NCBI RefSeq assembly: GCF_009377175.1
Contig: NZ_VJZD01000001.1
Location: 1-64,000 of the forward strand
Direction: 5' to 3'
From: Streptomyces adustus
Lineage (GTDB): Bacteria; Actinomycetota; Actinomycetes; Streptomycetales; Streptomycetaceae
Length of the DNA stretch: 64,000 nucleotides
Shown: positions 4,888 through 40,351 of the stretch, one piece after another
Layout: the number at the start of each line of letters is the position of its first letter
Position numbering within the stretch: position 1 is the stretch's first letter
Position numbers and translations under genes: made by a program
Notes under the pieces: model-generated
What the model was told of the DNA's origin: nothing
Seen by the model: only the letters and a program-made list of their open reading frames with translations
Database searches by the model: none

Positions 4888-4889
4888 TC

Positions 4890-5951: not shown

Positions 5952-7922
5952 ATGCCCAGCGATGACCTCGACCTGTGCCTCGTCGGCGCGGGACCGCGCG
6001 GTCTGTCGGTACTGGAGCGGCTGTGCGCCAACGAACGCGCCGCGTCCGCTCACCGGGCGGTCACCGTGCACGTCGTCGACCCCTACCGTCCCGGAGCCGG
6101 GCGGGTGTGGCGCACCGGACAGTCGCGGGTGCTGCTGATGAACACCGTCGCCTCACAGGTGACCGTGTTCACCGACGCCAGCGTGAAGATCGACGGTCCC
6201 GTGGAACCGGGACCCAGTCTGTACGAGTGGGCGCGCACGCTCGGTGACGGGCCCGGCGGGGCGACGCTCTACGACGAGGCCGTGCTCGCCGAGGCCCGTC
6301 GGCTGGGCCCGGACGACTACCCGTCCCGTGCCTTCTACGGCCGCTACCTGGAGGACGTCTTCGCCCGGCTGGTGTCCAACGCCCCGCCGCACCTGCGGAT
6401 ACGGGTGCACCAGGCCCGGGCCGTCGCCCTGCGGGAGCGGCCCGAGGACGGCGCGCAGCAGGTCGTCCTGTCCGACGGTCAGGTCCTCGACGGTCTCGAC
6501 GCGGTCGTTCTCTCCCAGGGCCATGTGCCGATCGACGTCTCCCCGGCCGAACGGCAGCTCTCGCAGCGCGCGCGGGCCCGCGGACTGCTGCACGTCCTGC
6601 CGTCCAACCCGGCCGACCTGGACCTGTCGGACGTGCGCTCCGGCGAGACGGTGCTGCTGCGCGGGCTCGGCCTGAACTTCTTCGACCACACGGCACTGCT
6701 CACCCTGGGGCGCGGCGGCCGTTTCGACCGCGTGGGCGCGCGTCTGGTGTACCGCCCGTCCGGCCGGGAACCGCGCATCGTCGCGGGCTCCCGGCGCGGC
6801 ATCCCGTACCACGCCCGCGGCGCCAACGAGAAGGGCGCGCACGGCCGTCACGAGCCGCGGGTGCTGACCGAGGAAGTGGTCGCGGGGCTGCGCAAGCGCG
6901 CGGTGGACGGTGAGCGCGTGTACTTCGGCATCGACCTGTGGCCGCTGATCACCCGGGAGGTGGAGAGCGTCTACTACGGGGCGCTGCTGGCCGCCCGCGG
7001 CCGGGAGGCCGAACGGGAGGAGTTCGTCGAGCGGTTCGTCTCGCTGCCCGAAGACCCGGCGCTGGCCGACGAGTTGCTCGACGCGTACGACATCGCACCC
7101 GAGGAGCGGTGGACCTGGGATCGGATCCTCCAGCCGCACGGCGACCTGGAGTTCGCCGACCGGGCGGAGTTCCGCCGCTGGATGCTGGAGCATCTGCGCC
7201 AGGACGTGCGCGAGGCCCGGGCGGGCAATGTGAGCGGGCCGCTCAAGGCGGCGCTGGACGTGCTGCGCGACCTGCGCAACGAGGTGCGGCTGGCCATCGA
7301 CCACGGCGGCCTGGACGGCACCTCCTACCGGGACGAGGTGGAGGACTGGTACACCCCGCTGAACGCCTTCCTGTCGATCGGACCGCCCTTCTCCCGCATC
7401 GAGGAGCTGATCGCGCTGGTGGAGGCGGGCGTCCTTGACCTGATCGGTCCGGGCATGCGGGTGCGTGTCGACGGTACGGCGGGAGCGTTCGTCGCCGAGT
7501 CGGACGGGGTGGGGGGCGCCCCCGTATTCGCCAGGGTGCTGGTCGAGGCCCGCCTGCCGGCCCCGGACCTGCGCCGGACCTCCGATCCGCTGCTGCGCGG
7601 GCTGTTGTCCACGGGGCAGTGCCGTCCGTTCCGCATCCCCGGTGCGTGCGGCACGAGTTACGAGACGGGTGGCCTGGAGGTGACCGAGCGCCCGTACCAC
7701 CTGGTCGACGCCTACGGCCGCAGTCATCCCCGGCGCTTCGCGTACGGGGTGCCGACGGAGGCGGTGCACTGGGTGACCGCGGCCGGCATCAGGCCCGGGG
7801 TGAACTCGGTGACCCTGGGCGACTCCGACGCCATCGCGCGGGCGGTACTGGCCCTGGCCCCCGCCGCCACGAGCGCCGCCGGGCGGCACTCCGGCAAGAC
7901 GCTGACGGAGGCACCGGCATGA
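5952..7922 (+). CDS. FAD/NAD(P)-binding oxidoreductase (PF13454-like, N-oxygenase candidate)
   Basis: A 656-residue protein opening with an FAD Rossmann motif GAGPRGLSVLERL (residues 10-22), typical of the NAD_binding_9 (PF13454) group. A second nucleotide-binding segment LLRGLGLNFFDHTALLT lies near residue 236, and the C-terminus (EAVHWVTAAGIRPG) is characteristic of long actinobacterial members. From memory, the aspartate N-oxygenases that start nitrous-acid formation (CreE, FzmM) have this length and fold, but the family also includes many enzymes of unknown role. The nitrosuccinate lyase partner is not in the window, though the contig ends 6 kb upstream. It lies 48 bp behind the methyltransferase in the same operon. 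Oxidoreductase is well supported; N-oxygenation is speculation. Confidence 0.7.
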   Translation: MPSDDLDLCLVGAGPRGLSVLERLCANERAASAHRAVTVHVVDPYRPGAGRVWRTGQSRVLLMNTVASQVTVFTDASVKIDGPVEPGPSLYEWARTLGDGPGGATLYDEAVLAEARRLGPDDYPSRAFYGRYLEDVFARLVSNAPPHLRIRVHQARAVALRERPEDGAQQVVLSDGQVLDGLDAVVLSQGHVPIDVSPAERQLSQRARARGLLHVLPSNPADLDLSDVRSGETVLLRGLGLNFFDHTALLTLGRGGRFDRVGARLVYRPSGREPRIVAGSRRGIPYHARGANEKGAHGRHEPRVLTEEVVAGLRKRAVDGERVYFGIDLWPLITREVESVYYGALLAARGREAEREEFVERFVSLPEDPALADELLDAYDIAPEERWTWDRILQPHGDLEFADRAEFRRWMLEHLRQDVREARAGNVSGPLKAALDVLRDLRNEVRLAIDHGGLDGTSYRDEVEDWYTPLNAFLSIGPPFSRIEELIALVEAGVLDLIGPGMRVRVDGTAGAFVAESDGVGGAPVFARVLVEARLPAPDLRRTSDPLLRGLLSTGQCRPFRIPGACGTSYETGGLEVTERPYHLVDAYGRSHPRRFAYGVPTEAVHWVTAAGIRPGVNSVTLGDSDAIARAVLALAPAATSAAGRHSGKTLTEAPA

Positions 7923-8053
7923 CGGCACGCCCGGCGCCGCCGCGGGCCGGACCGCACCCCGGCCGACCGGCGGACCCGCTCGCTCCGGCCACGTACACGC
8001 GCGCGGTCACCTCCCGGGTGCACCACGCCCCAAGAGGTCACCGCACACCCTGA
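7919..8053 (+). CDS. Possible 44-residue coupled small protein
   Basis: This small frame begins with an ATGA overlap on the stop of the FAD/NAD(P)-binding gene and ends 34 bp before the metK start. Its third codon positions are mostly G/C, as in real genes here. The product is Pro/Arg/His-rich with no recognisable motif. It may be a genuine coupled peptide or only the open tail common in GC-rich DNA. Confidence 0.2.
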
Positions 8054-8087
8054 CGCACGCCTCGTCGTCCCGACACCAGGAGTTCTC

Positions 8088-9308
8088 ATGTCTGCCCGGC
8101 TCTTCACCTCGGAATCGGTCACCGAAGGCCATCCCGACAAGCTCGCCGACCGGATCAGCGACACGATCCTCGACGCCCTCATCGCCCAGGACCCCACGGC
8201 CCGGGTCGCGGTGGAGACCCTGATCACCACCGGTCAGGTCCATGTCGCGGGCGAGGTCACCACCAGCGCGTACGCCGACATCCCCGCCCTCGTGCGCCAG
8301 GCGGTCCTGGAGATCGGCTACGACTCCTCCGCCAAGGGCTTCGACGGCGCCTCCTGCGGGGTGTCCGTGTCCATCGGGGCCCAGTCCCCGGACATCGCCC
8401 AGGGCGTCGACAGCGCCTACGAGCAGCGGGTCGACGGCGCTTCCTCCGCCGAGGAGGACCGGCTGGCCCGCCAGGGCGCCGGTGACCAGGGTCTGATGTT
8501 CGGTTACGCCTGCGACGAGACGCCGAGCCTCATGCCGCTGCCCATCCACCTGGCCCACCGCCTGTCGCGGCGGCTGTCGGAGGTGCGGCGCGACGGGACC
8601 GTGCCCTATCTGCGCCCGGACGGCAAGACCCAGGTCACCATCGAGTACCTGGGCAGCAAGCCCAAGCGCCTCGACACGGTCGTCGTGTCGTCGCAGCACA
8701 CCAGCGACATCGACCTGGACTCCCTGCTCACCCCGGATGTGCGCGAACACGTCGTCGAGCACGTCCTGGACGAGCTGGCCCAGGAGGGCATCAAGCTGGA
8801 GACCGAGGGCTACCGCCTGCTGGTCAACCCCACCGGCCGGTTCGAGATTGGCGGCCCGATGGGCGACGCCGGCCTCACCGGCCGCAAGATCATCATCGAC
8901 ACCTACGGCGGCTACGCCCGCCACGGCGGCGGTGCCTTCTCCGGCAAGGACCCCTCCAAGGTCGACCGTTCGGCCGCGTACGCGATGCGCTGGGTCGCCA
9001 AGAACGTCGTCGCCGCGGGGCTCGCCTCCCGCTGCGAGGTGCAGATCGCGTACGCCATCGGCAAGGCCGAGCCCGTCGGTCTCTTCGTCGAGACCTTCGG
9101 CACCGCCACCGTGCCGCAGGCCTCCATAGAGAAGGCCGTGACGGCGGTCTTCGACCTGCGTCCGGCCGCGATCATCCGGGATCTGGACCTGCTGCGCCCC
9201 ATCTACGCCCAGACCGCCGCCTACGGGCACTTCGGCCGCGAGCTGCCCGACTTCACCTGGGAGCGGACCGACCGCGTCGACGCGCTGCGCCGGGCCGCCC
9301 GGCGGTAG
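8088..9308 (+). CDS. metK: S-adenosylmethionine synthetase
   Basis: A 406-residue, full-length methionine adenosyltransferase that makes SAM from methionine and ATP. Visible signatures are [12 protein letters not shown] near residue 14 (with the ATP-contacting His), [12 protein letters not shown] near 127, and the glycine-rich [22 protein letters not shown] near 250. AGGAGTTCTC precedes the ATG. Streptomyces carry a housekeeping metK elsewhere, so a copy inside a cluster with a methyltransferase is probably a dedicated SAM supply. A strong hairpin follows the gene. Confidence 0.97.
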
Positions 9309-9320
9309 CCCTCCGCCCGA

Positions 9321-9354
9321 ACGCGGCCCCGGACCACCTGGTCCGGGGCCGCGT
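9321..9354 (+). terminator. Hairpin terminator after metK
   Basis: A perfect 16-bp inverted repeat (ACGCGGCCCCGGACCA and its complement) with a two-base loop lies 12 bp after the metK stop. There is no T-tract, as is usual for Streptomyces terminators. It suggests partial termination between metK and the kinase-like gene. Confidence 0.7.
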
Positions 9355-9397
9355 CGTCGCCTCCTGACGGGCCCGGGTTCCCTAGGAGTTGATCACC

Positions 9398-10366
9398 ATG
9401 CGTGTAGCCGTGACCGGTGCCATCGCGACCGATCAGGTGCTGACCGTCGCGGGCCGGCTCACCGACGGCACGGCGATGGGCCGCGGCGCCGCGGCGGTGC
9501 GGGCCGAGACCCTGCATGTGCGCCGGGGCGGGGCGGGCGCCAACATCGCGGTGGGACTGGGCCGGCTCGCCCTGCGCCCGCTGCTGGCCGGTGCGGTCGG
9601 CAAGGACTTCGCCGACTACGGCCGCGACTTGCAGTCGTACGGCGTGGACCTCGAACTCGTGCACGTCAGCGAGGAACTGGACACGGCCCGGGCGGTGGAG
9701 ATCAGGGACACCGAGGACGGCCGGCTCAGGCTGTCGTACGACGGCGCGCAGCCGGAGTCCCGGCGCATCACCCTGCTGCCGGCCGCACGCCGCATCGGCG
9801 GGCTGGGGCTCGTGGTGGTGGCGGCGGGGGACATCGAGGCCATGGTCCGGCACACCGAGGAGTGCAGGCGGCTCGGCATCCCCTTCGCCGCCGACCCCGG
9901 CGACCGGCTGTCCCGCCTCACCGGCCGCCAGGCGCGCAGACTGGTCGACGGGGCCCGTTACGCCTTCACGGACGAGTTCGACGTACCGCTGCTGCGCGAA
10001 CTCACCGGGTGGGGCGACGCGGAGCTGCTCAACCGGGTGGGCACCTGGGTCGTCACCCGCGGGCTGCGCGGCGTGGCCGTCCTGCGGCGCGGACGCCCCG
10101 CGAACCGGGTGGAGGCGGTACGCGCGGCGCAGGGGGGCGACCCGTCGGGAACCGCCGAGGCGTTCCGCGCCGGCTATCTGGCGGGTGCCGTCTGGGGATG
10201 GTCCGCCGAGCGCGGGGCGCAGCTCGGCTGCGCCCTGGCGGCAGCCGCACTCGAATCGAACGACGCACAGGGATATCCGCTGATGCGGGAGCGGCTGACG
10301 GCCCGTATCCGGTGCACGTACGGCCCGGAGGCCGCGGATCAAATAGCCGCCCGATTGCCCTCCTGA
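9398..10366 (+). CDS. PfkB-family sugar/nucleoside kinase homologue (adenosine-kinase-like)
   Basis: A 322-residue ribokinase-fold protein. The N-terminal glycine-rich motif RRGGAGANIAVGLGRL (near residue 43) and the adenosine-kinase-like opening AVTGAIATDQ are clear. The second signature normally reads DTxGAGDxF and supplies the catalytic Asp. Here it is DPSGTAEAF, so the anion-hole glycine is changed and residue 254 is Glu. Activity may therefore be altered or lost. Adenosine kinase beside metK would clear the adenosine released when S-adenosylhomocysteine is recycled, favouring methylation. I chose the ATG at 9398 with TAGGAG nine bases upstream over the in-frame TTG at 9389. Confidence 0.8.
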   Translation: MRVAVTGAIATDQVLTVAGRLTDGTAMGRGAAAVRAETLHVRRGGAGANIAVGLGRLALRPLLAGAVGKDFADYGRDLQSYGVDLELVHVSEELDTARAVEIRDTEDGRLRLSYDGAQPESRRITLLPAARRIGGLGLVVVAAGDIEAMVRHTEECRRLGIPFAADPGDRLSRLTGRQARRLVDGARYAFTDEFDVPLLRELTGWGDAELLNRVGTWVVTRGLRGVAVLRRGRPANRVEAVRAAQGGDPSGTAEAFRAGYLAGAVWGWSAERGAQLGCALAAAALESNDAQGYPLMRERLTARIRCTYGPEAADQIAARLPS

Positions 10367-10400
10367 ATACCGTGAAAAGGAACCGGCCGATCAACGGACG

Positions 10401-10515
10401 GGCAGCTCGGCACCGCACGCTCCGGCCGTCCCTCGACGCCCGCTCGCACCGGTCTGCAACACCCTGTCCCCGAACGGTGTTTGTCCCAGTGATGGACGTC
10501 GAGGCAGAGCAGCCG
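10401..10515 (+). repeat. Copy A of a 115-bp duplication: relic of a SARP end plus sigma start
   Basis: This segment aligns without gaps to 11442-11556 at an offset of 1041 bp. The best-conserved stretch (10452-10517) shows only seven mismatches in 66 positions. In copy B the same bases encode the last residues of the second SARP, the sigma promoter and the first codons of the sigma factor. Here the SARP part has lost its stop (GSSAPHAPAV instead of GSSALDAPVV) and the sigma part decays after MDVEAEQPT. It is a fossil of an earlier SARP-sigma junction. Confidence 0.8.
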
Positions 10516-10612
10516 ACACGGCACCCGGGTCGTCACGCGCGGGTCTCGCGTTCGAATAGCGAGAAAAGAAAACCGGCCGACCGACCCGATTCAATACCAC
10601 CCGCTTTTCCAA

Positions 10613-10641
10613 TTGACACCGATTCGGCATCGCTTTAGCCT
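10613..10641 (+). promoter_or_regulatory. Sigma-70-type promoter for SARP 2
   Basis: TTGACA at 10613-10618 and TAGCCT at 10636-10641 are separated by 17 bp, the consensus layout of HrdB-dependent Streptomyces promoters. It lies 63 bp before the SARP start, in a locally AT-richer stretch. This would express SARP 2 independently of the upstream operon. Confidence 0.6.
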
Positions 10642-10703
10642 TGCTCGAGAAAAATAGAATGCCAGTTCGAGATGTGAAGACATTACGGGGATAGGAACTC
10701 TTC

Positions 10704-11480
10704 ATGAACTCAGGTATTCTCGGCCCGCTCCTGCTGTCCGATACGGAGGAAAATCTGGTCCCGAGCGCGCCGAAACCGCGCCAGCTCCTCGCCTTTCTGA
10801 TGCTGCACACCCCGCAGATGGTGCGGGCCAGCGACTGCATCACCGAGCTGTGGGGATCGACTCCCCCCAAGAGCGCGATGTCCACGCTCCAGACCTACGT
10901 GCTCCACATCCGGCAGGCCCTGCGCGGCCCCCGCAGGGACCGCAGCCATCTGCTCCTGACCAGGAACCAGGGCTACCAGCTCACCCTCGAAACGACCGAT
11001 TTCGACCGCTTCCGGTTCACGGAGCTGACCCGGCTGGGACACCTGGCGACGGCCGCCGGCAACCATCGGACGGCGTCGGAGATGTTCACCCTGGCCCTCG
11101 CGCAGTGGCGCGGTCCCGCGCTGTCCGACGTCAGCGCGGGCCCCCTCAGCTCACCGCATCTGGCGGAACTGGCGGAGACCCGGCAAGGTGTCCTGGAGCA
11201 GCGCATCGAGGCCGACCTGGCGCTCGGCAAGCATCGTGAGCTGGTCGACGAGCTCAGTGATCTGGCCGCGCGCCACCCCACCCACGAGAACGTGCACGCT
11301 CAGCTGATGGTCGCGCTCTACCGCTCCGGCGAGCGCAAACGCGCCGGTGACGTCTTCCAGGGGCTTCGCCGGGCGCTCGGTGACACCCTGGGGATCGAGC
11401 CCGTGCCGCGGATGCGGCGCCTGTACCAGGCGGTCCTGGTCGGCAGCTCGGCGCTGGACGCTCCGGTCGTCCGCCGATGA
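10704..11480 (+). CDS. SARP-family transcriptional activator (2)
   Basis: A 258-residue SARP with a winged-helix N-terminal domain (ILGPLLLSD, KPRQLLAFLMLHTPQ) and a bacterial transcriptional activation domain (DFDRFRFTELTRLG, ALYRSGERKRAGDVF). Its length matches minimal pathway SARPs of the RedD/ActII-4 type, with no ATPase or TPR extension. GGGATAGGA precedes the ATG. Its 3' end runs directly into the sigma-factor promoter, so regulator and sigma unit are physically linked. Two SARPs flanking one set of biosynthetic genes suggests layered control. Confidence 0.92.
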   Translation: MNSGILGPLLLSDTEENLVPSAPKPRQLLAFLMLHTPQMVRASDCITELWGSTPPKSAMSTLQTYVLHIRQALRGPRRDRSHLLLTRNQGYQLTLETTDFDRFRFTELTRLGHLATAAGNHRTASEMFTLALAQWRGPALSDVSAGPLSSPHLAELAETRQGVLEQRIEADLALGKHRELVDELSDLAARHPTHENVHAQLMVALYRSGERKRAGDVFQGLRRALGDTLGIEPVPRMRRLYQAVLVGSSALDAPVVRR

Positions 11481-11556
11481 CCGTTCCCGTCTGTCTGCAA
11501 CACCCTGCGCCCGGACGGTGTTTGTACCAGTGATGGACGACAAGGCAGAGCAGCTG
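11442..11556 (+). repeat. Copy B of the 115-bp duplication (functional copy)
   Basis: This is the intact partner of the relic at 10401-10515. It spans the last 13 codons of SARP 2, the intergenic promoter and the first eight codons of the sigma gene. Both arms of the AACACC/GGTGTT inverted repeat are unchanged between copies; mismatches in this stretch fall in the spacer and flanks. Confidence 0.8.
11498..11524 (+). promoter_or_regulatory. Putative autoregulated ECF promoter/operator
   Basis: CAACACC and GGTGTTTG form 6-bp inverted arms (11499-11504 and 11517-11522) around a 12-bp spacer. CAAC followed about 17 bp later by GTGTTT also resembles the -35/-10 arrangement of ECF-sigma promoters. 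If so, transcription would begin almost at the sigma start codon, giving a leaderless message, consistent with the lack of a ribosome site there. The same element in the relic at 10457-10483 is conserved. Confidence 0.5.
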
Positions 11557-12123
11557 ACCGAACTCCTGGCGGCGCACCTCGAAGCCGGCTTCACCGAGCT
11601 GGTGCGGGTGCACGCCGGGGCGGTGCACGCGTTCCTGTACCGAGTCTCCGGCTCCTTCGCCGAGGCGGACGACCTGGGGCAGGACACGTTTCTGCGCGCC
11701 TACACGGCCCTCCAGGGCTATTCCGCCGCACGGCGCCGTGAACTACGGCCACGGGCGTGGTTGATGACCATCGCGGCGAACGTGTGGCGCAACCACGTCC
11801 GTACCCGGAAACGGCGCCCGGTCACGGCCGGACTGCCCGTGGAGGAGACCATGGACGTCTGGCCGGACCACAGCCCCGGTCCGGAGGAGCGCGCGGCGAC
11901 GACGGAGGAGCGGTCTCGTCTGGTCACCGCCTTGTCGGCGTTACCCGAGCACCATCGCATACCGGTCGTGCTCCACCATGTGATCGGAATGAGTTACTCG
12001 GAGGTGGCCGAGGTGCAGGGCTGCGCCGTCGGCACCGCGAAGGCGCAGGTCTCCCGTGGGCTGGCCGGCCTGCGACGCCTGTTGGAATCGGAGCCCACCG
12101 CGCTGAAGGAGGTGACGAGGTGA
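11533..12123 (+). CDS. ECF-family RNA polymerase sigma factor
   Basis: A 196-residue sigma factor with region 2 (YRVSGSFAEADDLGQDTFLRAYTALQ, core binding and -10 recognition; WLMTIAANVWRNHVR) and region 4 (ALSALPEHHRIPVVLHHVIGMSYSEVAEV followed by GTAKAQVSRGLAGLR, -35 recognition). There is no Shine-Dalgarno; a GTG directly before the ATG is an alternative start, and a leaderless transcript is likely. The next gene overlaps the stop by GTGA, so they are co-translated. That partner is an alkyl-DNA repair fusion rather than a recognisable anti-sigma factor, which points to a sigma factor tied to alkylation damage. Confidence 0.92.
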   Translation: MDDKAEQLTELLAAHLEAGFTELVRVHAGAVHAFLYRVSGSFAEADDLGQDTFLRAYTALQGYSAARRRELRPRAWLMTIAANVWRNHVRTRKRRPVTAGLPVEETMDVWPDHSPGPEERAATTEERSRLVTALSALPEHHRIPVVLHHVIGMSYSEVAEVQGCAVGTAKAQVSRGLAGLRRLLESEPTALKEVTR

Positions 12124-12920
12124 ACGAAAGCGAGGACGACGCGGTCGCGCGGCGTCTGCCGGATCTCGCATCGGCCGCACCGGAGGACTTCGCGCTGCGC
12201 GTGCTGCGCCGTGTGGGCATCTCCGCGGACCACTACGACAGCTACGTACACCTCGACACGGCCGCGGGCGGGCTGTTCGTGGCCGCGAGCCCCCAGGCCG
12301 TGACCGGTGCCTGCCTGGACTCGGCGGGCCTGACCGCGACCGCCTTCGAGGAACTGCACCGGGCACGCACCGGGCGCTCGGCGATCCCGGGCAGCAAGCC
12401 GTTGCCCGGGCTCATCCCGGCACTGCGCACGGGCCGGGCGCGCCGGCTGGCGATCGACCTGTCCGGGCTGCCGGACGAGCAGCGCGCGGTCCTCCAAGCC
12501 GTACGGAACATCCCCGCGGGGCAGTTGCGGCCGCTGAGCTGGATCGCCCGCGAGGCCGACACCGGGACTCCGCCCTCGGCCTCCGACGTCCTGCACGCGC
12601 TGGCGGCCAACCCCGTCGCCGTGCTCATACCGTGCCACCGGGTCACGCACGACAACGGAGCGCCGTGCGACGCCGCGTACCTGCCGAGGACCGGCGAGGC
12701 CCTGCGCCGCGCGGAGCACATCGACATGCGCCGGGTGACGGAGCTGTCCAGGGCCGGCGCGGTCTTCCTCGGCAGCGACACCACGTACATCTACTGCCAC
12801 CCGACCTGCGCCCACGCCCGCCGCATCACGCCCGGGCACCGGGTGCACTTCCGCACCGCGCACGACGCCCGCGAGGCGGGTTACCGGGCCTGCAAGAGCT
12901 GTCGGCCCCTCACCGTCTGA
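12120..12920 (+). CDS. Ogt-type alkyltransferase fused to a C-terminal Ada zinc domain
   Basis: A 266-residue protein in reversed Ada order. Residues 75-210 are the O6-alkylguanine-DNA alkyltransferase region with the acceptor motif IPCHRV (Cys172). Residues 215-264 are the Ada zinc/methylphosphotriester domain: FLGSDTTYIYC, with Cys226, Cys230, Cys258 and Cys261 spaced as in E. coli Ada Cys38/42/69/72. In Ada, methylation of the first Cys turns the protein into a DNA-binding activator. No AraC DNA-binding domain is present here. Translational coupling to the ECF sigma (GTGA overlap, AAGGAGG upstream) suggests it senses alkylation and controls that sigma factor; this control is inference. Confidence 0.88.
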   Translation: MNESEDDAVARRLPDLASAAPEDFALRVLRRVGISADHYDSYVHLDTAAGGLFVAASPQAVTGACLDSAGLTATAFEELHRARTGRSAIPGSKPLPGLIPALRTGRARRLAIDLSGLPDEQRAVLQAVRNIPAGQLRPLSWIAREADTGTPPSASDVLHALAANPVAVLIPCHRVTHDNGAPCDAAYLPRTGEALRRAEHIDMRRVTELSRAGAVFLGSDTTYIYCHPTCAHARRITPGHRVHFRTAHDAREAGYRACKSCRPLTV

Positions 12921-12984
12921 CCCGGGCACCGTCCGACCCGGCGCACCCACAGAGCACCACACAGCACCGCAGAAAGGTCCATCC

Positions 12985-13530
12985 ATGCGCACCCCACCCA
13001 CCGCGGCACTCGCCGCGCACCGGACCCCGCTGGGCTCCCTGACCCTCGCGGCCACCGACGAGGCGCTGGTGCTGTGCGCCTTCGACGACCGTGAGCAGGC
13101 GGTGGCCCGGATCGCCCGCGGTGACCTCACCGCCGTGGACACCGACGCCGCCACCCCCGCCCAGCTGCGGATCATCGAGGAGGCGGGCCGTCAGGTGGAC
13201 GCGTACCTCGAAGGCCGCAGCCGCACGTTCACCGTGCCCATGGACCTCCGCCTGGCCACCCCGTTCAGCCGCACCACCGTGGAACGGCTGGACAGCCTCC
13301 TTCCGTACGGGGTGACGGGCACCTACGCCGAGCTGGCCGCCGCGCTCGGGCGGCCGCGGGCCGCGCGGGCCGTGGGCACCGCGCTCGGCGCGAACCCCCT
13401 GTGCGTGGTGCTTCCCTGTCACCGGGTCGTCGGCTCGGGCGGACGCCTGACCGGCTACGCCGGCGGTGTCGAGGCCAAGCGGTTCCTGCTCGACCTGGAG
13501 TCCGGCGGCACGCCCGCGGCCTCCCTCTGA
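12985..13530 (+). CDS. ogt: Methylated-DNA--protein-cysteine methyltransferase
   Basis: A 181-residue O6-methylguanine-DNA methyltransferase. The active-site motif LPCHRVVGSGGRLTGYAGG contains the acceptor Cys145, and the preceding GTYAELAAALGRPRAARAVG is the conserved DNA-binding recognition helix region. The protein removes O6-alkyl groups from guanine by irreversible transfer to the Cys. It follows the Ogt-Ada fusion by 64 bp on the same strand. Two alkyltransferases side by side within a biosynthetic cluster suggest protection from a self-made alkylating agent. Confidence 0.96.
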   Translation: MRTPPTAALAAHRTPLGSLTLAATDEALVLCAFDDREQAVARIARGDLTAVDTDAATPAQLRIIEEAGRQVDAYLEGRSRTFTVPMDLRLATPFSRTTVERLDSLLPYGVTGTYAELAAALGRPRAARAVGTALGANPLCVVLPCHRVVGSGGRLTGYAGGVEAKRFLLDLESGGTPAASL

Positions 13531-13533
13531 ACC

Positions 13534-13572
13534 GGCGGGCGCCGGAGCAATCCCCCGCCTCCGGCGCCCGCC
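13534..13572 (+). terminator. Hairpin between ogt and the oxygenase gene
   Basis: A perfect 14-bp inverted repeat (GGCGGGCGCCGGAG and its complement) with an 11-base loop lies three bases after the ogt stop. There is no T-tract. It may partly terminate or protect the repair transcript before the oxygenase gene, which begins 26 bp later. Confidence 0.6.
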
Positions 13573-13597
13573 TCCTTCCACGACCGCGGAGCCGACA

Positions 13598-14383
13598 GTG
13601 ACCAGCTACCACACCCCACACCTGCCGGGCCTGGACCACGGCCACGTGCCCGGCGCGCCCGACGCGGGCACCGACGACACGATCGAACTGCCCGCCGTGG
13701 ACGCGCTGGACTGGTCCGCGCTGACCACGGCACTGGACGCCGAGGGCGTCGCCGTCACCCCGCCCCTGCTGTCGCCGCGCGCCTGCGAGGAGATGCGGGC
13801 GCTGTTCGACCGGGACGAGGTGTTCCGCAGCACCGTCGACATGAGCCGCCACCGCTTCGGGAGCGGCCGCTACCGCTATTTCGCCGCCCCGCTGCCCCCG
13901 GTGGTGGCCGCCCTGCGCAGGCAGCTGTACCCGCCGCTGGCCCGGATCGCCAACCAGTGGGCGGAGCGCCTGGACGGGCCCCGGTTCCCGTCGACCCACG
14001 CCGAACTGACGGCGGCGTGCGCCGCGGCCGGACAGCTGCGGCCCACTCCCCTGCTGTTGCGCTACGGTCCCGGCGACTACAACTGCCTGCACCAGGACGT
14101 CTACGGCGAGCTGACGTTCCCGCTCCAGGTGGCGGTGATGCTGGACCGGCCCGACGTCGACTTCACCGGCGGTGAGAGCGTCTTCGTCGAGCAGCGTCCG
14201 CGCGCCCAGTCCCGTCCGGTGGTGAAGCGGCCGGGCCAGGGGCAGGGACTGATCTTCGCGGTGCACGACCGCCCGGTCCCGTCGACGCGCGGCTGGAGCC
14301 GCTTCATGCTGCGCCACGGGGTGAGCACGGTGCACGACGGCCGACGGCACGTCCTCGGCGTGATCTTCCACGACGCCCCGTGA
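13598..14383 (+). CDS. 2OG-Fe(II) oxygenase linked to alkylation repair (PF09859-like)
   Basis: A 261-residue protein resembling the Oxygenase-NA/DUF2086 family, described as oxidising alkyl damage on DNA and often found beside ada genes. The jelly-roll metal triad is visible as H165-x-D167 in LHQDVYGEL and a distal His, probably H240 in LRHGVS. HRFGSGRYRYF, DFTGGESVFVEQRPR and LGVIFHDAP are family hallmarks. The GTG at 13598 is chosen over an upstream ATG inside ogt that would add an arginine/proline-rich leader. It completes a repair trio (Ogt-Ada, Ogt, oxygenase) analogous to Ada/Ogt/AlkB. Confidence 0.85.
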   Translation: MTSYHTPHLPGLDHGHVPGAPDAGTDDTIELPAVDALDWSALTTALDAEGVAVTPPLLSPRACEEMRALFDRDEVFRSTVDMSRHRFGSGRYRYFAAPLPPVVAALRRQLYPPLARIANQWAERLDGPRFPSTHAELTAACAAAGQLRPTPLLLRYGPGDYNCLHQDVYGELTFPLQVAVMLDRPDVDFTGGESVFVEQRPRAQSRPVVKRPGQGQGLIFAVHDRPVPSTRGWSRFMLRHGVSTVHDGRRHVLGVIFHDAP

Positions 14384-14531
14384 CGCCCGGGTCGCTGCCG
14401 GGTCGGGGGCCGGTGCCGGTAAGGGGCCGCTTTCCGGCCATCGTCCCCGTGGACGACGCGCCGCCGACGGCGGCCGGGTTAGCGTGCGAGGGACAGGAAG
14501 ATCGACAAGCGTCACGGCGACGGGGACACCC

Positions 14532-15716
14532 ATGGACATCATCGACCTGACGGCCTACGGCGAGCGCTTCACCGCCGATCCGCACCCGTTCCTCGCCGCA
14601 CTGCGCGAACAGGGGCCGGTGCACAAGGTGCGCGACGCCGGCGGGGGTGAGTTCTGGCTGATTGTCGGCCACGAGGAGGCGCGGGCCGCGCTCGCCGACC
14701 CGCGTATGTCCAAGGACCTGCGGAAGCTGGGCTGGGACGTCTACGACGCCGATCTCATCGGACGCCACATGCTGATCTCCGACCCGCCCGAGCACACCCG
14801 ACTGCGCAGGCTGGTCAGCCGTGAGTTCACCCCGCGCCGGGTCGAGGCGCTGGCACCGCGCGTCCAGGAGATCACCGACGGGCTGCTGGACGCCATGCTG
14901 GAGCGGCCCGACGGGCGGGCCGACCTCGTGGAATCGCTGGCCTACCCGCTGCCCATCACCGTCATCTGCGAACTGCTGGGCGTGCCCGACATGGAGCGCG
15001 CGGAGTTCCGGCGCTGGTCCAACGAGGTCGTGGCGCCCACCAGCGAGGAGGCGGCGTTCCGGGCCTTCGGTGAACTCAGTGCCTTCCTGGCGTCGTTGAT
15101 CGAGACCAAGCAACGCACCCCCGGCGACGACCTGATGAGCGCGCTGATCCGCACCACCGAGGAGGACGGCGACCGGCTGTCCTCCGGCGAACTGGTCGGC
15201 ATGGCCTTCCTGTTGCTGGTGGCCGGCCACGAGACCACGGTCAACCTGATCTCCAACGGAGTGCGCGCCCTGCTCGCCCACCCCGAACAACTGGCCGCGC
15301 TGCGGGCCGACATGAGCCTCCTCGACGGCGCCATCGAGGAAATGCTGCGCTACGACGGTCCGCTGGAGTCGGCGACCAACCGCTGCACCACCGAGCCCGT
15401 GGAGATCGGCGGCACCGTCGTCCCCGCCCTGGAGCCGGTGCTGATCTCGCTCGCCGGCGCCCACCGCGATCCGAGCCGCTACGAGGACCCCGACACCTTC
15501 GACATCCGTCGCGAGGCCCGCGGCCACCTCGGATTCGGCCACGGCATCCACTTCTGCATCGGCGCGCCCCTGGCCCGGCTGGAAGGCCGGATCGCGCTGC
15601 GCTCGCTGCTGGAGCGCTGCCCGGAGCTCGCCCTGGACACCCGTCCGGACGCGCTGGAGTGGCTGCCGGGACTGCTCATCCGCGGCACCCGCACCCTGCC
15701 CGTCCGTTTCGCCTGA
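14532..15716 (+). CDS. Cytochrome P450 (CYP107/105-like)
   Basis: A 394-residue soluble actinobacterial P450. The I-helix motif is LLLVAGHETT, the K-helix ExxR is EEMLR, and the haem loop FGHGIHFCIG carries the proximal ligand Cys342. HTRLRRLVSREFTPRR is the usual C-helix region. Such enzymes hydroxylate or couple natural products using separate ferredoxin partners, none of which are encoded nearby. Its position after the repair genes suggests a late tailoring step, but it could belong to neighbouring chromosome. Confidence 0.93.
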   Translation: MDIIDLTAYGERFTADPHPFLAALREQGPVHKVRDAGGGEFWLIVGHEEARAALADPRMSKDLRKLGWDVYDADLIGRHMLISDPPEHTRLRRLVSREFTPRRVEALAPRVQEITDGLLDAMLERPDGRADLVESLAYPLPITVICELLGVPDMERAEFRRWSNEVVAPTSEEAAFRAFGELSAFLASLIETKQRTPGDDLMSALIRTTEEDGDRLSSGELVGMAFLLLVAGHETTVNLISNGVRALLAHPEQLAALRADMSLLDGAIEEMLRYDGPLESATNRCTTEPVEIGGTVVPALEPVLISLAGAHRDPSRYEDPDTFDIRREARGHLGFGHGIHFCIGAPLARLEGRIALRSLLERCPELALDTRPDALEWLPGLLIRGTRTLPVRFA

Positions 15717-20408: not shown

Positions 20409-20924
20409 TCAGTGGTAGGCATGCACCACCGCATGACCCCTGCCGCGGCCGATCATCCACCGGTTGACCGGTGTGGTGAGCACGAAGGCCAGAGCCAGGG
20501 ACAGCGCGAGCGAGGCCCAGAAGAGGAACTCGCCGAGGCCCGCGTCCATCGCGCCGGGCACGGCCACGATGACGGTGTTGTCGATCACTTCCATGACGGC
20601 GATGGACACGGTGTCCGCGGCCAGCGCGACCTTGAGCGCCTGGCGGAGCGGCAGCCCGGCACGCAGCACGCCACGCATGGTCAGCGCGTAGCCGAAGACG
20701 AAGGCGAGCGCGATGGAGAGGACGACCGTGGTCGCGTTGTGCAGCCCTGCGGCGGTACCGATCACCATGCCGAGGACTTCACCGATGGCGCAACCCGTCA
20801 GACAGTGCAGCGTCGCCTGCGCGGCGGCACGCCAGGACGCGCCGGAGCCATGGTGCTCGTGGTGCTCGTGGTGCTCATGGTGAGCGTGGTGCTCGCTGTG
20901 CTCGTGGTGTGCGGTGTGGTCCAT
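20409..20924 (-). CDS. Histidine-rich DUF4396 membrane protein
   Basis: A 171-residue protein with a His/Glu-rich N-terminus (HHEHHEHHEHHG, a likely metal-binding tail) followed by four predicted membrane helices matching DUF4396: TLHCLTGCAIGEVLGMVIG, VVLSIALAFVFGYALTM, a middle segment DTVSIAVMEVIDN, and LFWASLALSLALAFVL. The Cys in the first helix and conserved acidic residues in the membrane suggest metal handling. The palindrome just upstream matches CsoR copper operators, so copper-induced expression is likely. It probably sits in the cytoplasmic membrane in copper tolerance or trafficking; transport activity is not shown. Confidence 0.85.
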   Translation of the reverse strand: MDHTAHHEHSEHHAHHEHHEHHEHHGSGASWRAAAQATLHCLTGCAIGEVLGMVIGTAAGLHNATTVVLSIALAFVFGYALTMRGVLRAGLPLRQALKVALAADTVSIAVMEVIDNTVIVAVPGAMDAGLGEFLFWASLALSLALAFVLTTPVNRWMIGRGRGHAVVHAYH

Positions 20925-34396: not shown

Positions 34397-35344
34397 ATGC
34401 TGGAGCGGCACGAGCTGGAGGCGTTTCTGACGCTCGCCGAGGAGCTGCACTTCGGCCGCACGGCCGAGCGGCTGCACGTCTCGACCGCCCGGGTCAGCCG
34501 GACCATCGCCAAACTGGAGCGCCGCATCGGCGTCCCGCTGTTCGACCGCACCAGCCGCCGGGTGGAACTGTCCCAGGCAGGGCGGCAGTTGCTGGAGGAG
34601 ATGGGCCCCGCGTGGTCGCGGATCACCGACGCGTTCGAGCGGGCCATCGACGCCGGACGCGGCATGACCGGACTGCTGCGGGTGGCGTACGACGGTCCGG
34701 CCGCGGGCCAGTTGCTGGTCGGTGCCGCCCGGCGATTCCGGGCCCGGCATCCCGAATGCGAGGTCCGGATCAAGGAAGCGCACCTGCCGCAGGTGCTGCC
34801 GTGGCTGCGTGACGGCGAGGTGGACCTCGCGTTGACCTGCTTCCCGGTGCAGGAGCGAGGTGTCGTGACCGGACCGGTTCTGGTGCGTGAGGCCCGTATG
34901 CTCGCCGTCCCGGTCGGGCATCCCTTCGCCCGGCGCGCGGCCGTCTCCGTCGGGGACCTGGCCCGCGTGACCGTGGTGCAGTTGCCCAGGGCGTCGCCGA
35001 AGTCGCCGCGCCAGGACCGTACGCCGCCGCGGACGCCCGTGGGCGGGTCCGTCGCTCCCGGCCCGTCCGCCGAGACCTTCAACGAGGTGCTGACGCTGGT
35101 CGGCGCCGGGGAGGGCGTCTTCGCCGTCGGCGCCCACGTACGGCGCTACTTCGCCCGCCCCGACGTCGCCTATGTCCCCTTCGAGGACGCCGCGCCGGTG
35201 GAATGGGGTCTCGTCTGGCTCGCCGAGGGCGCGACGTCCCGGGTCCGCGCGTTCAGTGAGGCGGCACTCGGCCTGGTCCAGGATTCCGCACCTGCACCCG
35301 GACGCGCTCCGCGGCCCACGAGTCGGGTCATTCGGGGCGGCTGA
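34397..35344 (+). CDS. LysR-family transcriptional regulator (1)
   Basis: A 315-residue LysR regulator. The helix-turn-helix is LHFGRTAERLHVSTARVSRTIAKLERRIG (residues 19-47), and the effector-binding domain follows (LRVAYDGPAAGQLLVGAARRFRARHPECEV). Ser is replaced by Arg in the usual SAVS position, a common variant. It is divergent from the SnoaL-like gene and probably controls it. The last 17 bp overlap the end of the convergent lanthipeptide permease gene. Confidence 0.92.
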   Translation: MLERHELEAFLTLAEELHFGRTAERLHVSTARVSRTIAKLERRIGVPLFDRTSRRVELSQAGRQLLEEMGPAWSRITDAFERAIDAGRGMTGLLRVAYDGPAAGQLLVGAARRFRARHPECEVRIKEAHLPQVLPWLRDGEVDLALTCFPVQERGVVTGPVLVREARMLAVPVGHPFARRAAVSVGDLARVTVVQLPRASPKSPRQDRTPPRTPVGGSVAPGPSAETFNEVLTLVGAGEGVFAVGAHVRRYFARPDVAYVPFEDAAPVEWGLVWLAEGATSRVRAFSEAALGLVQDSAPAPGRAPRPTSRVIRGG

Positions 35345-36218
35345 AGCGGTGGGCGGCCCAGAGCAGGGCCGCGACTCCGCCCGCCAGCAGGACGGCGCCT
35401 TCCAGGAGCAGGGGTGGCTGCCAGCCCGACCACTCGATGCCCACGGCGGTCGCCTGGCCCGGTACGCGGAGCGCGATGCCGCGGCGGAGCAGGTCCACCC
35501 CGTAGGCGAGCGGGTTCGCCGCGGCCAGCGGGTGGGCCCAGCCCGGCAGGTTGCCCAGAGGGAAGAAGCCGCCGGAGAGGAACAGCAGCGGCATCATCAC
35601 CAGGCCGAGCAGCATGTGGAAGATCTCGGGCCGGTCGAGGCTCACGGCCAGCAGCAGGGACAGGGCCGTGATGGTGAACGAGGCCAGGATCAGCACACCG
35701 AGGAGCAGCGCCAGCAGGAGCGGGTCGTAGGGCAGGCCGACGGTGCCGGCCAGGCCGAGCAGGACGGCGCCCTGGACCGTGGAGACGATGGTGCCGCCGG
35801 CACAGCTCCCGAGCAGCAGGGTGGACCGGCTGACCGGGGCCATCAGCAGTTCGCGCAGGTAGCCGCTCTGCCGGTCGGTGATCAGGCGGACGCCGACGAT
35901 GATGGCCGGCGCCTGTACGGTCATCATCAGCATGCCCGGGAAGAGGTACGCCTGGTAGCCGACCCCCAGTGAGGAGTTCGGGATCAGGGCGGCCAGACCG
36001 CCTCCCAGGACGAAGAGGTAGAGCACCGGCTGGATCAGCATCAGGGCGCTGTGCGTGGGCTGGCCCGCCAGGCGCAGCAGATCGCGGTGGATCAAGGCGT
36101 GGACCGCGCGCAGTTCGTGGCGCAGCGGCGGCCTCGGCTCGCGGGCGCCGCCGCGGGAGGCACCACGGTCGGCGGGGGTGCCGGAGGCGTCCGAGGCCGG
36201 GAGAGCGGGGGCGGTCAC
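35328..36218 (-). CDS. ABC-2 type permease of the lanthipeptide operon
   Basis: A 296-residue DrrB-like permease with six membrane segments, for example LIQPVLYLFVLGGGLAAL and LLALLLGVLILASFTITALSLLL, and the family's PLLFLSGGFFPL. The GTG at 36218 overlaps the ATPase stop (GTGA), indicating coupled translation of a transporter pair. In class IV clusters such as venezuelin, two ABC genes (venT/venH type) follow the precursor; this pair likely exports the mature peptide or gives immunity. A much longer in-frame reading through the ATPase gene is spurious. Confidence 0.9.
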   Translation of the reverse strand: MTAPALPASDASGTPADRGASRGGAREPRPPLRHELRAVHALIHRDLLRLAGQPTHSALMLIQPVLYLFVLGGGLAALIPNSSLGVGYQAYLFPGMLMMTVQAPAIIVGVRLITDRQSGYLRELLMAPVSRSTLLLGSCAGGTIVSTVQGAVLLGLAGTVGLPYDPLLLALLLGVLILASFTITALSLLLAVSLDRPEIFHMLLGLVMMPLLFLSGGFFPLGNLPGWAHPLAAANPLAYGVDLLRRGIALRVPGQATAVGIEWSGWQPPLLLEGAVLLAGGVAALLWAAHRFSRPE

Positions 36219-37345
36219 GGGGCCTCCTCGGTCGCTGCGGTGCCGGCGCCCGGAGCCGGGTCGGCCGGTGTCGGGTCGCCCGGTGTCCGGTGCGGCCCGG
36301 GGGCGTGGATGCTGCGGCCGGTGTGATGGAAGAAGACGTCGTCGAGCGTCGGCGGGGTCGCGGACGCGGCGTGCACGGCGATGCCGTGGGCTTCGAGTGC
36401 CGCGCACAGACGGGGAATCCAGGCGCTGCCGTGGGGCACCCGCAGGGACACCCCCTCGGAGTCCAGGTTGACGGGCAGGCCCGACGGCGCGGTCCGGCCC
36501 ACGACCTGCCGTGCCGCCGCGTCGTCGCCGGTACGCAGCAGCACCCGGTCCGCCCCGATCGCGGCCTTCAGCGCGTGGGGCGTGCCCTGGGCCACGAGCC
36601 GGCCGTGGTCGAGGATGCCGAGCCGGTCGCAGTGCTCCGCCTCCTCCAGGTAGTGGGTGGTGACGAAGAGGGTGCTGCCGTGCCGGTCGCGCAGTACGCG
36701 CAGGTACTCCCAGACCTGGACGCGGGCGTGCGGGTCGAGTCCGGTGGTCGGCTCGTCGAGGAAGAGCACCTCGGGCGCGTGCAGCAGGCCACGGGCGAGC
36801 TCCAGGCGGCGGCGCATGCCGCCGGACAGGGTGCGGACCGGGAAGCGCCTGCGGTCGCCCAGTCCGACCGCTTCGAGCATCTCGGTGACGCGCACGCGGG
36901 CGTGGCGGCGGCGCAGTCCGTAGAGGCGTGCGTGGATGTACAGGTTCTGTTCGGCCGTCAGGTCGGGATCCAGGGCGCTGTGCTGGAAGAGCATCCCGAC
37001 CAGTCGTCTCACCCGGTCCGGTCGGCTGAGCACGTCGGCGCCCGCCACCGTGGCCTGTCCGGCGGTGGGGCGGGCCAGGGCGCACAGCAGGGCGAGGGTG
37101 GTGGACTTGCCCGCGCCGTTGGGGCCGAGGAAGGCATAGGTCTCGCCACGCAGGACGTCGAGGTCCAGGCCGCGTACGGCGTGGGTGGTGCTTCCGTCCG
37201 GGCCCGCGTAGCTCTTGACCAGGCCGCGCGTGCTGATGGCGTACACCGGCGGGGCCGCGGCGGTCCGCGCGTCGTCCGGGCCGGTACGGACGGCGGTCGG
37301 GGTGGTCGCTCGCGTGTGTGCGTCGTCACCGGCATGTGGCCTCAT
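36215..37345 (-). CDS. ABC transporter ATPase of the lanthipeptide operon
   Basis: A 376-residue DrrA-like ATPase: Walker A FLGPNGAGKSTT, signature TLSGGMRRRLELARGL, Walker B VLFLDEPTTGLDP, and the switch His in FVTTHYLEEAE. The C-terminal DUF4162-like region and a Pro-rich tail complete it. I prefer the ATG at 37345, which has GAGGAG eight bases upstream, to the GTG at 37363. It is downstream of the precursor gene behind a strong hairpin, so its expression may be lower than that of the precursor. Confidence 0.92.
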   Translation of the reverse strand: MRPHAGDDAHTRATTPTAVRTGPDDARTAAAPPVYAISTRGLVKSYAGPDGSTTHAVRGLDLDVLRGETYAFLGPNGAGKSTTLALLCALARPTAGQATVAGADVLSRPDRVRRLVGMLFQHSALDPDLTAEQNLYIHARLYGLRRRHARVRVTEMLEAVGLGDRRRFPVRTLSGGMRRRLELARGLLHAPEVLFLDEPTTGLDPHARVQVWEYLRVLRDRHGSTLFVTTHYLEEAEHCDRLGILDHGRLVAQGTPHALKAAIGADRVLLRTGDDAAARQVVGRTAPSGLPVNLDSEGVSLRVPHGSAWIPRLCAALEAHGIAVHAASATPPTLDDVFFHHTGRSIHAPGPHRTPGDPTPADPAPGAGTAATEEAP

Positions 37346-37405
37346 GGTCGGCTCCTCGTCCACGGGGGTGTCTTCCGCGCGGCCTGCGGGTCGCGGCGGA
37401 ATCGG

Positions 37406-37445
37406 CTCCGGCCGGTGGCCGCCCGAGGGCGACCACCGGCCGGAG
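37406..37445 (-). terminator. Hairpin between lanA and the transporter genes
   Basis: A perfect 13-bp stem (CTCCGGCCGGTGG and its complement) with a 14-base loop that can itself pair begins eight bases after the lanA stop on the minus strand. With no T-tract, it probably acts as a partial terminator or 3' stabiliser, keeping precursor mRNA above transporter mRNA. Confidence 0.65.
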
Positions 37446-37453
37446 GATTTCGA

Positions 37454-37609
37454 CTAGGCGCAGCTGACGCCGATGCAGACGGTGTTCAGCAGCGTCAGCA
37501 GGCCGACGCACGCACAGGTGCCGCTGAACTGCGCGCCGTCGACACCGACCGGGTCGGTCTCCGGAAGGGCGTGCAGGTGGGCCAGCAGTTCGAGCGCCTG
37601 GTTCTCCAT
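37454..37609 (-). CDS. lanA: Class IV lanthipeptide precursor (venezuelin-like)
   Basis: A 51-residue precursor with an excellent ribosome site (GAAGGAG). The leader MENQALELLAHLHALPETD contains the helical ELLxxLHxLPETDPVG recognition element of class III/IV leaders. The core after about residue 20 reads VGVDGAQFSGTCACVGLL and continues with T39, T43, C45, S49 and C50. Donors S29, T31, T39, T43, S49 and acceptors C32, C34, C45, C50 allow several lanthionine rings. From memory it differs from venezuelin's VenA only at a few positions, in the leader and around the first ring. It lies 48 bp downstream of lanL and would be dehydrated and cyclised by LanL. Confidence 0.93.
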   Translation of the reverse strand: MENQALELLAHLHALPETDPVGVDGAQFSGTCACVGLLTLLNTVCIGVSCA

Positions 37610-37657
37610 GACATTCTCCTTCTGTGAGCGGTTACGACAGGAGGATTTACCTGTCGT

Positions 37658-40351
37658 TCAGCCCGGCACCTGAGCCATCCAGTGCCGGGAGTCTGTGGTG
37701 TGGCGGGTCCTCAGGAGGAACGCCAGGATGCCTGCGGCTCCGTCGCTCCAGCTCGTCGAGACGTCCCCGTACTCGTTGGGGAAGACGACGTGGCTGTCGC
37801 GGTGCGCCCGTTCGCAGACGATGAGGCGGGCCACGTCCTCGGCCATCGCCCGGTAGGCGGGATCCCCGGTGGCGTCGGCCATGTCGAGGAGGAAGTCGCC
37901 GTTGCCGGCCAGTCCGTGGCACTGGGCGACGGCGGCGCGCGAGGCGCGCTCCACGACGGCGTGGGCGGCGCCGCGGGCGAGATCGACGTAGCGTTTGTCC
38001 CCGGTCTGCTGCCAGAGCCGGACCAGGAAGGAGCCGATGCCCGCCGAGCCGTGACACCAGTAGGGGGCGGTGGGCACGTCGGTGGCCTGGGCCGGCCACT
38101 GGGCCGTCTGACCGACCATCACGGCGTTGGCCACCAGGTGCTCGCCGGCCGCCACGGCCAGCTCCATGTGCTCCACACGGCGGGAGACGGCCGCCGCGGC
38201 GAGGAGGAAGCAGCCGATGCCCGCTGTTCCGTGCGCGAAGCCGAGGTAGCGTTTGCCGGCCTCTTTGGACACGGCTTCCGCGGGGACGGGCCAGCTCACT
38301 CCGGACGGTTCGGACTGCGCGGCGGCGGCCAGCCGGTCGGCCGCGTCGACGACCAGCTCGGCCAGGCGTGGGTCACCGCTGCGCTGCCACAGATGGGCGG
38401 CGGCCAGGCCGCTGCCCGCGCAGCCGTGGGTGATGTCGTAACTGGGTGTCCGCTCCAGCGGGGCCAGCGCCAGGGCCGACGCGTGGTCCGTGAGCGCGCG
38501 GTCGTCGACGGCGCGTCCTGCGTCGTACAGCGCCCAGGCGATTCCGCGGCCGCCGAAGTGCAGGCCCGGACGGATGGAGCGGGTGTCGGTCCGGTCGACG
38601 ATCCAGTGGCCCGCGGTACGCAGCAGATCCGGCAGGCGCGGGTCGCCGGTGAGCTCGAAGTACCGGGTCAGCACCGCCAGTACACCGGCCGCACCTTGCT
38701 GCACGGTGCAGGGGTCGGTCTCACCGGCCAGGGTGGACACGGGCCACAGCCGGCCCTGGTCGGCGGGGGTCATCGACTCGACGAGGTGGTTCACCATCCC
38801 GATGACCGCGAGCTGTGTCGCGTCGTCCGACTCGGCTGTGCGTGCCGACTCGGCTGTGCGTGCCGGCGCGGGGGTGGGGCGCGCGGTCCACGACGGGTCC
38901 GCCGCGCGAAGCGCCGTACGCGCCCTGTCCGGGTCCCAGCGCTCGCCGGGATCGTCCTTCATCAGCCCGAGGATCATCTCCCGCAGGCCCTCCGGCAGGC
39001 CCAGCGTTCCGGCGCAGGCGTCCAGCCAGTCGGCGAACCGCTGCTCCTCGGTCCTGTCGGCCGGCTCCTCGGGCAGCAGGTTGGGTACCTTCCCGGCGAG
39101 CACGAAGCACACGGTGGCGCCGAGACTGTAGTAGTCGGCCGTCGGGGAGACGGGAGCGTCCGCCAGGCGTTCGGGGGCGCTGAAGCCGGGGGTCCCCACC
39201 TGGGTCGGGAGCGCGATGTCGTCCTCCAGGACGGCGAGCTCCAGGTCGATGAGGCGCAGTTCCCCGTCGGGGCGGACCATGACGTTGGCCGGGGTGAAGT
39301 CCCTCAGTACGCAGCCGCAGGCGTGGGCCGCCGCGACCAGGTCCACCAGCAGTGCGACCTGTTCGAGCGCCTCGGCGCGGTAGCGTTCGCTGCCGACGTC
39401 GCGGAAGCGTTCGGCGACCCAGTTGCGCAGGGGTACGCCCGGCACTTCCTCCAGGGCGAGGAACAGGTGCCCGCCCGTCTCGAACGTCGCGAGCAACTCC
39501 GGTGCCAGTCCGGTGTGTTTGAGTTTCTCCAGCGTCCTGGCCTCGGTCCGCAGCCAGTCGCGGACGTCGGAGCCGGACCGGTCGCCCTCGACGTGCGGCC
39601 GGGCTTCCTTGATCACTACGGGTGCGCCCGTGGTGACGTCGGTGCCCCGGTAGACACCGCCCTTGTTGGTGTGCCGGATCGCCTCCCGTACCGAGAACCG
39701 GCCGCCGAGCAGTACGGGCTTGCCCGCCGCCTTCTCCTGTTCCGGTGGAAGCGGTACCGAGGCGGGAAAGGGGCTCACCGCCCATGCGGGTGGCGAGTAC
39801 TGCCCGGTGCGCTTGTCCTCCACGGGATTGCCGTCGGGGTCCTCGATGAACCACACCAGCAGGCCCTCGTCCGACAGTCGCCGCCGGCCGACGAAGGCGC
39901 CGTAGCGGTAGTGCACCAGACTGCGCGGGGCGTACGGCTGGTCCGACAGGATGCGGGGGCCGGGCAGTCCCGCCGTGGCCCTGTGCAGCTCCATCGCTAT
40001 TCGGGCCGCGGCTCCGTCGGAGGGCGGGTATACGGTGATGAACTTGCCGGAACTCCCCCGCGGTGTGGCACGGGAGTTGAGCGCGCTCACCTGTTCGAGC
40101 GAGCGCACGAACTTGAATGCCGCGTCTTCGCGCAGCAGCACATCCATGGCCCTCACAAGGACTTCCGGTGCAGAGGCCGCCGTCGCGGAAACATGCAGTT
40201 TCCAGCCTTGCCGGCGTTGAATTCCGGACAGGCAGGTGAGGCGGCACCACATCTCGTCCGCGTCGGTCGTCCAACGCGCCTCCGTACCGGTGGCCTGCAA
40301 TGCCCGGCGGAGCAGACTTTCGAGGTCGACTTCGGTTGCGTGGCTCGTCAT
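37658..40351 (-). CDS. lanL: Class IV lanthipeptide synthetase
   Basis: An 897-residue trifunctional enzyme. Residues 1-215 are the phospho-Ser/Thr lyase domain, about 220-490 a Ser/Thr kinase (VVIKEARP Lys, LRDFTPANVMV catalytic Asp, LIDLELA metal site), and about 515-890 a LanC-like cyclase. The zinc ligands are present: Cys766 in YWCHGSAG and Cys811-His812 in QCHGLAGN. Class III LanKC enzymes lack these, so this is class IV LanL. It phosphorylates, eliminates and cyclises Ser/Thr with Cys in the adjacent 51-residue precursor. GGGAGGGAC precedes the ATG. A duplicated AR-TAES-like linker separates kinase and cyclase. Confidence 0.96.
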   Translation of the reverse strand: MTSHATEVDLESLLRRALQATGTEARWTTDADEMWCRLTCLSGIQRRQGWKLHVSATAASAPEVLVRAMDVLLREDAAFKFVRSLEQVSALNSRATPRGSSGKFITVYPPSDGAAARIAMELHRATAGLPGPRILSDQPYAPRSLVHYRYGAFVGRRRLSDEGLLVWFIEDPDGNPVEDKRTGQYSPPAWAVSPFPASVPLPPEQEKAAGKPVLLGGRFSVREAIRHTNKGGVYRGTDVTTGAPVVIKEARPHVEGDRSGSDVRDWLRTEARTLEKLKHTGLAPELLATFETGGHLFLALEEVPGVPLRNWVAERFRDVGSERYRAEALEQVALLVDLVAAAHACGCVLRDFTPANVMVRPDGELRLIDLELAVLEDDIALPTQVGTPGFSAPERLADAPVSPTADYYSLGATVCFVLAGKVPNLLPEEPADRTEEQRFADWLDACAGTLGLPEGLREMILGLMKDDPGERWDPDRARTALRAADPSWTARPTPAPARTAESARTAESDDATQLAVIGMVNHLVESMTPADQGRLWPVSTLAGETDPCTVQQGAAGVLAVLTRYFELTGDPRLPDLLRTAGHWIVDRTDTRSIRPGLHFGGRGIAWALYDAGRAVDDRALTDHASALALAPLERTPSYDITHGCAGSGLAAAHLWQRSGDPRLAELVVDAADRLAAAAQSEPSGVSWPVPAEAVSKEAGKRYLGFAHGTAGIGCFLLAAAAVSRRVEHMELAVAAGEHLVANAVMVGQTAQWPAQATDVPTAPYWCHGSAGIGSFLVRLWQQTGDKRYVDLARGAAHAVVERASRAAVAQCHGLAGNGDFLLDMADATGDPAYRAMAEDVARLIVCERAHRDSHVVFPNEYGDVSTSWSDGAAGILAFLLRTRHTTDSRHWMAQVPG

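Follow-up and report, generated by a model that had tools for sequence, protein, structure and literature searches.

The closest described system to the locus reported here is the venezuelin cluster of Streptomyces venezuelae, venL-venA-venT-venH (Goto et al. 2010, PMC2843593), in which phosphorylation, elimination and then cyclization by VenL were demonstrated (PMC2843593). The published VenA positions are Thr31, Cys32, Cys34, Thr39, Thr43, Cys45, Ser49, Cys50 and Ala51, and the rings of venezuelin join 34-39, 45-49, 32-43 and 50-31 (PMC2843593). Further class IV lanthipeptides include streptocollin and globisporin (SgbA/SgbL), the latter called venezuelin-like in PMC12328550, and SflA (Ren et al. 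2020, via PMC10885120), for which the citing article gives an unclustered AplP-like leader protease; the ring pattern of SflA is non-overlapping according to the title of its paper. Here we describe a cluster of the venezuelin type in a 64,000-nucleotide stretch of Streptomyces adustus DNA (contig NZ_VJZD01000001.1; the window), and two conserved hairpins that bracket its precursor gene.

Gene Content, Distribution and Possible Silence of the Cluster

The venezuelin-type set of four genes lies on the minus strand of the window, at 35328-40351. It consists of lanL (venL-like; 37658-40351, 897 amino acids); the lanA precursor gene (venA-like; 37454-37609, 51 codons plus stop, MENQALELLAHLHALPETDPVGVDGAQFSGTCACVGLLTLLNTVCIGVSCA); a venT-like gene for a DrrA-like ABC transporter ATPase (36215-37345, starting at an ATG with a ribosome-binding site at 37345); and a venH-like gene for a DrrB-like ABC-2 permease (35328-36218), the latter two assigned from family matches and synteny. 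The start of venH is most likely the GTG at 36218, which gives an overlap of 4 nt with the venT stop; a longer GTG frame called mechanically at 35328-37085 was rejected in favor of this start. lanL and the precursor gene are 48 nt apart, and about 108 nt separate the precursor and ATPase genes. All four reading frames are open, and ribosome-binding sites are seen 5′ of the cluster genes. The two exporter genes are adjacent and 3′ of the precursor gene, so that gene content and gene order are the same as in the venezuelin cluster, and like that cluster this one contains no protease, regulator or immunity gene. No second LanL or second precursor scores over cut-off in the genome. Family models, residue conservation and synteny thus bear out the first-pass annotation, which had proposed a complete class IV cluster forming a venezuelin-like operon with a two-gene ABC exporter.

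Loci of this kind are widespread. The VenA model scores over its cut-off in 46 of 393 Streptomyces genomes (about 12% of those sampled); 74 VenA-type loci were found in a species-level genome collection, including loci from Actinomadura and one from Microtetraspora, and in a further sample of relatives matches came from one of 86 genera. The comparisons below use up to 105 loci, a number that exceeds that of independent genomes, since some species are represented from two collections. The precursor gene adjoins lanL in the relatives as it does in the window, and most Streptomyces loci retain the whole cluster: lanL, T and H were found in 75, 65 and 60 of 75 loci, respectively. Some of the Actinomadura T matches are distant and situated in another part of the locus. 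Beyond lanL, the precursor gene, T and H, no additional gene is generally shared by the relatives' loci that were compared: the flanking genes of the window (encoding LysR regulators, a SnoaL-like protein, a transketolase and a NUDIX protein) are not generally common to them. The cluster is an ordinary member of the known venezuelin family, and nothing in the evidence supports a categorically new system.

Two other features of the window lie outside the cluster. At 1233-15716, genes for an aromatic-ring hydroxylase, an AMP-binding enzyme, an O-methyltransferase and an FAD-NAD(P)-binding protein lie close together with genes for a SAM synthetase, a PfkB kinase, a BTAD (SARP-type) regulator and a P450, a group that resembles another specialized-metabolite cluster. 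An ORF at 20409-20924 (minus strand) begins with a histidine-rich repeat (MDHTAHHEHSEHHAHHEHHEHHEHH).

Intact genes could nevertheless be silent, with no product formed by this strain in ordinary growth conditions, because venezuelin itself was undetected in wild-type S. venezuelae, whose cluster seems silent under the conditions used (PMC9769785; PMC2843593). Our scan, which is weak for Streptomyces, recognized no sigma-70-type promoter upstream, and neither a canonical promoter nor a T-run terminator relevant to the cluster was reported. Silence is set against by the four open frames, by the retention of all catalytic residues, by the conserved hairpins described below, and by the codons of the core, which differ from those of relatives by a mean of 5.0 synonymous and 2.4 nonsynonymous changes; we regard it as unlikely, though it deserves some weight. 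Silencing by Lsr2, which was considered on account of the lower G+C content upstream of lanL, was dropped, as the literature on the venezuelin cluster lists neither an Lsr2-associated nor an AdpA site in it.

The Precursor Peptide

The first-pass annotation had pointed to a 51-residue precursor downstream of lanL that resembles VenA and is easily missed. The resemblance is confirmed: the peptide scores 98.6 bits against the NCBIfam model NF038147 (VenA family class IV lanthipeptide; cut-off 35), and its residues 31, 32, 34, 39, 43, 45, 49 and 50 are identical to those at the biochemically established VenA positions, so that four Cys and four Ser/Thr (Cys32/34/45/50, Thr31/39/43 and Ser49) occupy the venezuelin positions in a peptide of the same length. 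Because of this match, its good ribosome-binding site and its same place beside lanL in relatives, the reading frame is, as judged from sequence, a real gene and not a chance ORF. That such a gene is easily missed is a fair remark and one already documented, since a survey of more than 100,000 genomes found 86% of class IV precursors without annotation (PMC7268733).

Among the 105 loci, Cys32, Cys34, Cys45, Cys50, Thr31 and Thr39 are invariant, and positions 43 and 49 vary solely between Ser and Thr. For a residue-by-residue comparison we used locus L089 as the venezuelin-type reference; its precursor fits all published VenA positions, and we infer that it is VenA. The window precursor differs from it at eight positions (H4Q, D5A, I6L, P27Q, A29S, A30G, E33A and I48V). 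An earlier proposal that the core departs from venezuelin near the first ring holds in part: P27Q, A29S and A30G sit just N-terminal of the first ring Thr, but within the ringed part, Thr31 to Ala51, there are two differences alone, E33A and I48V. The exact core T31-A51 occurs in the window's own genome alone among the 105 loci (some of them redundant), which agrees, in a weak sense, with the further suggestion that the product is probably a new variant; on the other side, the closest cores are one residue away, every substitution is frequent in the family, and the ring-forming residues are the same. On the sequence comparison, the precursor is a new combination of ordinary family polymorphisms in which all ring-forming residues are unchanged.

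These substitutions could in principle lead to a number of dehydrations or a ring pattern unlike that of venezuelin, through Ser29 (as a fifth Dha), Gly30 and Ala33. Ser29, which is found in 29 of 105 relatives, stands directly before the core and is a possible fifth dehydration site absent from VenA; however, none of the four Cys or of their partners has changed and the precursor has no fifth Cys, so Ser29 could do no more than remain as Dha, take the place of another partner or leave with the leader, and we consider a departure of this kind improbable. For a peptide with four dehydrations, the calculated masses (M) are 1980.966 for T31-A51, 2037.987 for G30-A51, 2125.019 for S29-A51 and 2272.088 for F28-A51. 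The venezuelin ring topology is the one we favor, and the window precursor retains the venezuelin residue pattern, in contrast to the non-overlapping rings announced in the title of the SflA paper.

The LanL Synthetase

As in the venezuelin system, the synthetase has three domains: a RamC_N-type lyase (about residues 18-203), a Ser/Thr kinase (about 213-473) and a LanC-like zinc cyclase (about 546-891), with Pfam matches to RamC_N at 18-203, Pkinase at 230-473 and LANC_like at 546-891. It scores 1219.5 bits against NCBIfam NF038150 (class IV lanthionine synthetase LanL; cut-off 650). Across 75 LanL homologues, 250 residues are at least 98.5% conserved. Among them, the invariant residues include Lys51, His53, Lys103, Arg133, Tyr148 and Arg149 of the lyase domain and Lys248, Asp351, Asn356 and Asp369 of the kinase. 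Cys766, Cys811 and His812, together with His707 of the cyclase, are invariant; the first three had been named as zinc ligands in the first-pass annotation, and the positions given there are right. In an alignment, Cys766 and Cys811-His812 fall on the WCHG and CHG motifs of LANCL1/LANCL2. Cys-Cys-His zinc ligands in the cyclase are a mark of class IV that is missing from class III, and the window LanL has them. At the positions of C766-H767 and C811-H812, the nearest relative with a full-length solved structure, 8car, carries C-Q and C-C. A class III (LanKC) synthetase, which would share the lyase-kinase-cyclase architecture and whose model NF038151 also matches the protein (520 bits, under its cut-off of 575), is practically untenable against the NF038150 score, the zinc ligands that distinguish the window LanL from 8car, and a precursor of the VenA family.

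Two Conserved Hairpins Bracket the Precursor Gene

An 18-bp hairpin with a 4-nt loop (37406-37445, minus strand) starts 8 nt past the precursor stop. The repeat search did not give it as one unit, and it was recovered by folding: the 100-nt stretch that contains it has a folding energy of -61.8 kcal/mol, compared with a mean of -44.3 for shuffled sequences (z -4.9). The hairpin sequence has a single copy in the genome and so is not a dispersed repeat. Stems with a score of at least 13 within 120 nt of the precursor stop were found in 63 of 75 loci, versus 11 of 1500 same-length segments of the lanL region; in Actinomadura the post-precursor hairpin has a different sequence and lies about 55 nt downstream. 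When 27 distinct Streptomyces-type sequences are aligned, standard pairs fill 97.5% of pair cells, a percentage biased by the choice of sequences for having the stem; a stronger sign is that compensatory changes on both sides occur at 10 of 18 pairs. None of 500 shuffles attained any of the five measures that we used. In Streptomyces sp. col6 (L068:8109-8175) the stem of the post-precursor hairpin runs to 30 bp with no mismatch, and the search of that locus found neither a T nor an H gene.

A smaller, 8-bp hairpin (ACGACAGG / CCTGTCGT; 37634-37657, minus strand) sits just past the lanL stop and ahead of the ribosome-binding site of the precursor gene, and a hairpin is present at this conserved position in nearly all Streptomyces loci whose gap was read. 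We aligned its arms alone, since MAFFT misplaced them when the loops were included. The alignment contains 23 cells with double-sided changes and has a covariation score greater than that of all shuffles; the number of pairs with double-sided changes is not above that of the shuffles, and the percentage paired is biased because the set was picked for its fit to the structure.

Neither hairpin is a canonical intrinsic terminator, since neither is followed by a T-run, and the terminator scan reports none there. Both are conserved across the venezuelin family, and they may set the dosage of the precursor. Whether these covarying hairpins set how much precursor is made relative to synthetase and exporter, through partial termination or segmental stability of the mRNA, is in our estimate an evenly balanced question. 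Our literature search, of partial coverage, found no published account of hairpins flanking venezuelin-type precursor genes.

Leader Removal and Proposed Pathway

Unclustered AplP-like M1 peptidases were reported to cleave class III and IV leaders (PMC10885120), and the genome of the window strain encodes at least four strong M1 peptidases. A different arrangement is seen in all 11 Actinomadura relatives, where a Peptidase_S9 gene (S9 prolyl-oligopeptidase family) separates lanL from lanA (L040:6100-7974, and the equivalent position in L043, L044, L046, L051, L054, L057, L059, L063, L065 and L069); ABC_membrane-type ABC exporters then follow in the three Actinomadura loci that were scanned. 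The window genome has distant relatives alone of this S9 protein, which is a candidate leader peptidase for venezuelin-type peptides.

Taken as a whole, the locus is very probably a complete venezuelin-family class IV cluster that works as follows. LanL would bind the conserved leader (MENxxLELLAHLHALPETDPV...), and its kinase domain would phosphorylate Thr31, Thr39, Thr43 and Ser49 of the precursor. The lyase domain would then eliminate the phosphates to give Dhb and Dha, to which the zinc cyclase would add Cys32, Cys34, Cys45 and Cys50, most likely in the venezuelin topology (rings 34-39, 45-49, 32-43 and 50-31). A protease encoded outside the cluster would cut off the leader, and the DrrAB-like TH transporter would carry the product out of the cell. 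The hairpins probably stabilize the precursor cistron or partly terminate transcription, either of which would yield more precursor than synthetase and exporter.

Implications for the Venezuelin Family

The cluster contributes a further natural venezuelin analogue, whose core was unseen at the other loci compared. Two features of the family bear on experimental work: refactoring for heterologous expression would remove the conserved hairpins around the precursor gene, and the clustered Actinomadura S9 peptidase is a candidate enzyme for leader removal, a step still missing from the account of venezuelin biosynthesis. No activity has been found for venezuelin itself, yet the core of its family is strongly constrained in the approximately one-eighth of sampled Streptomyces that carry it.
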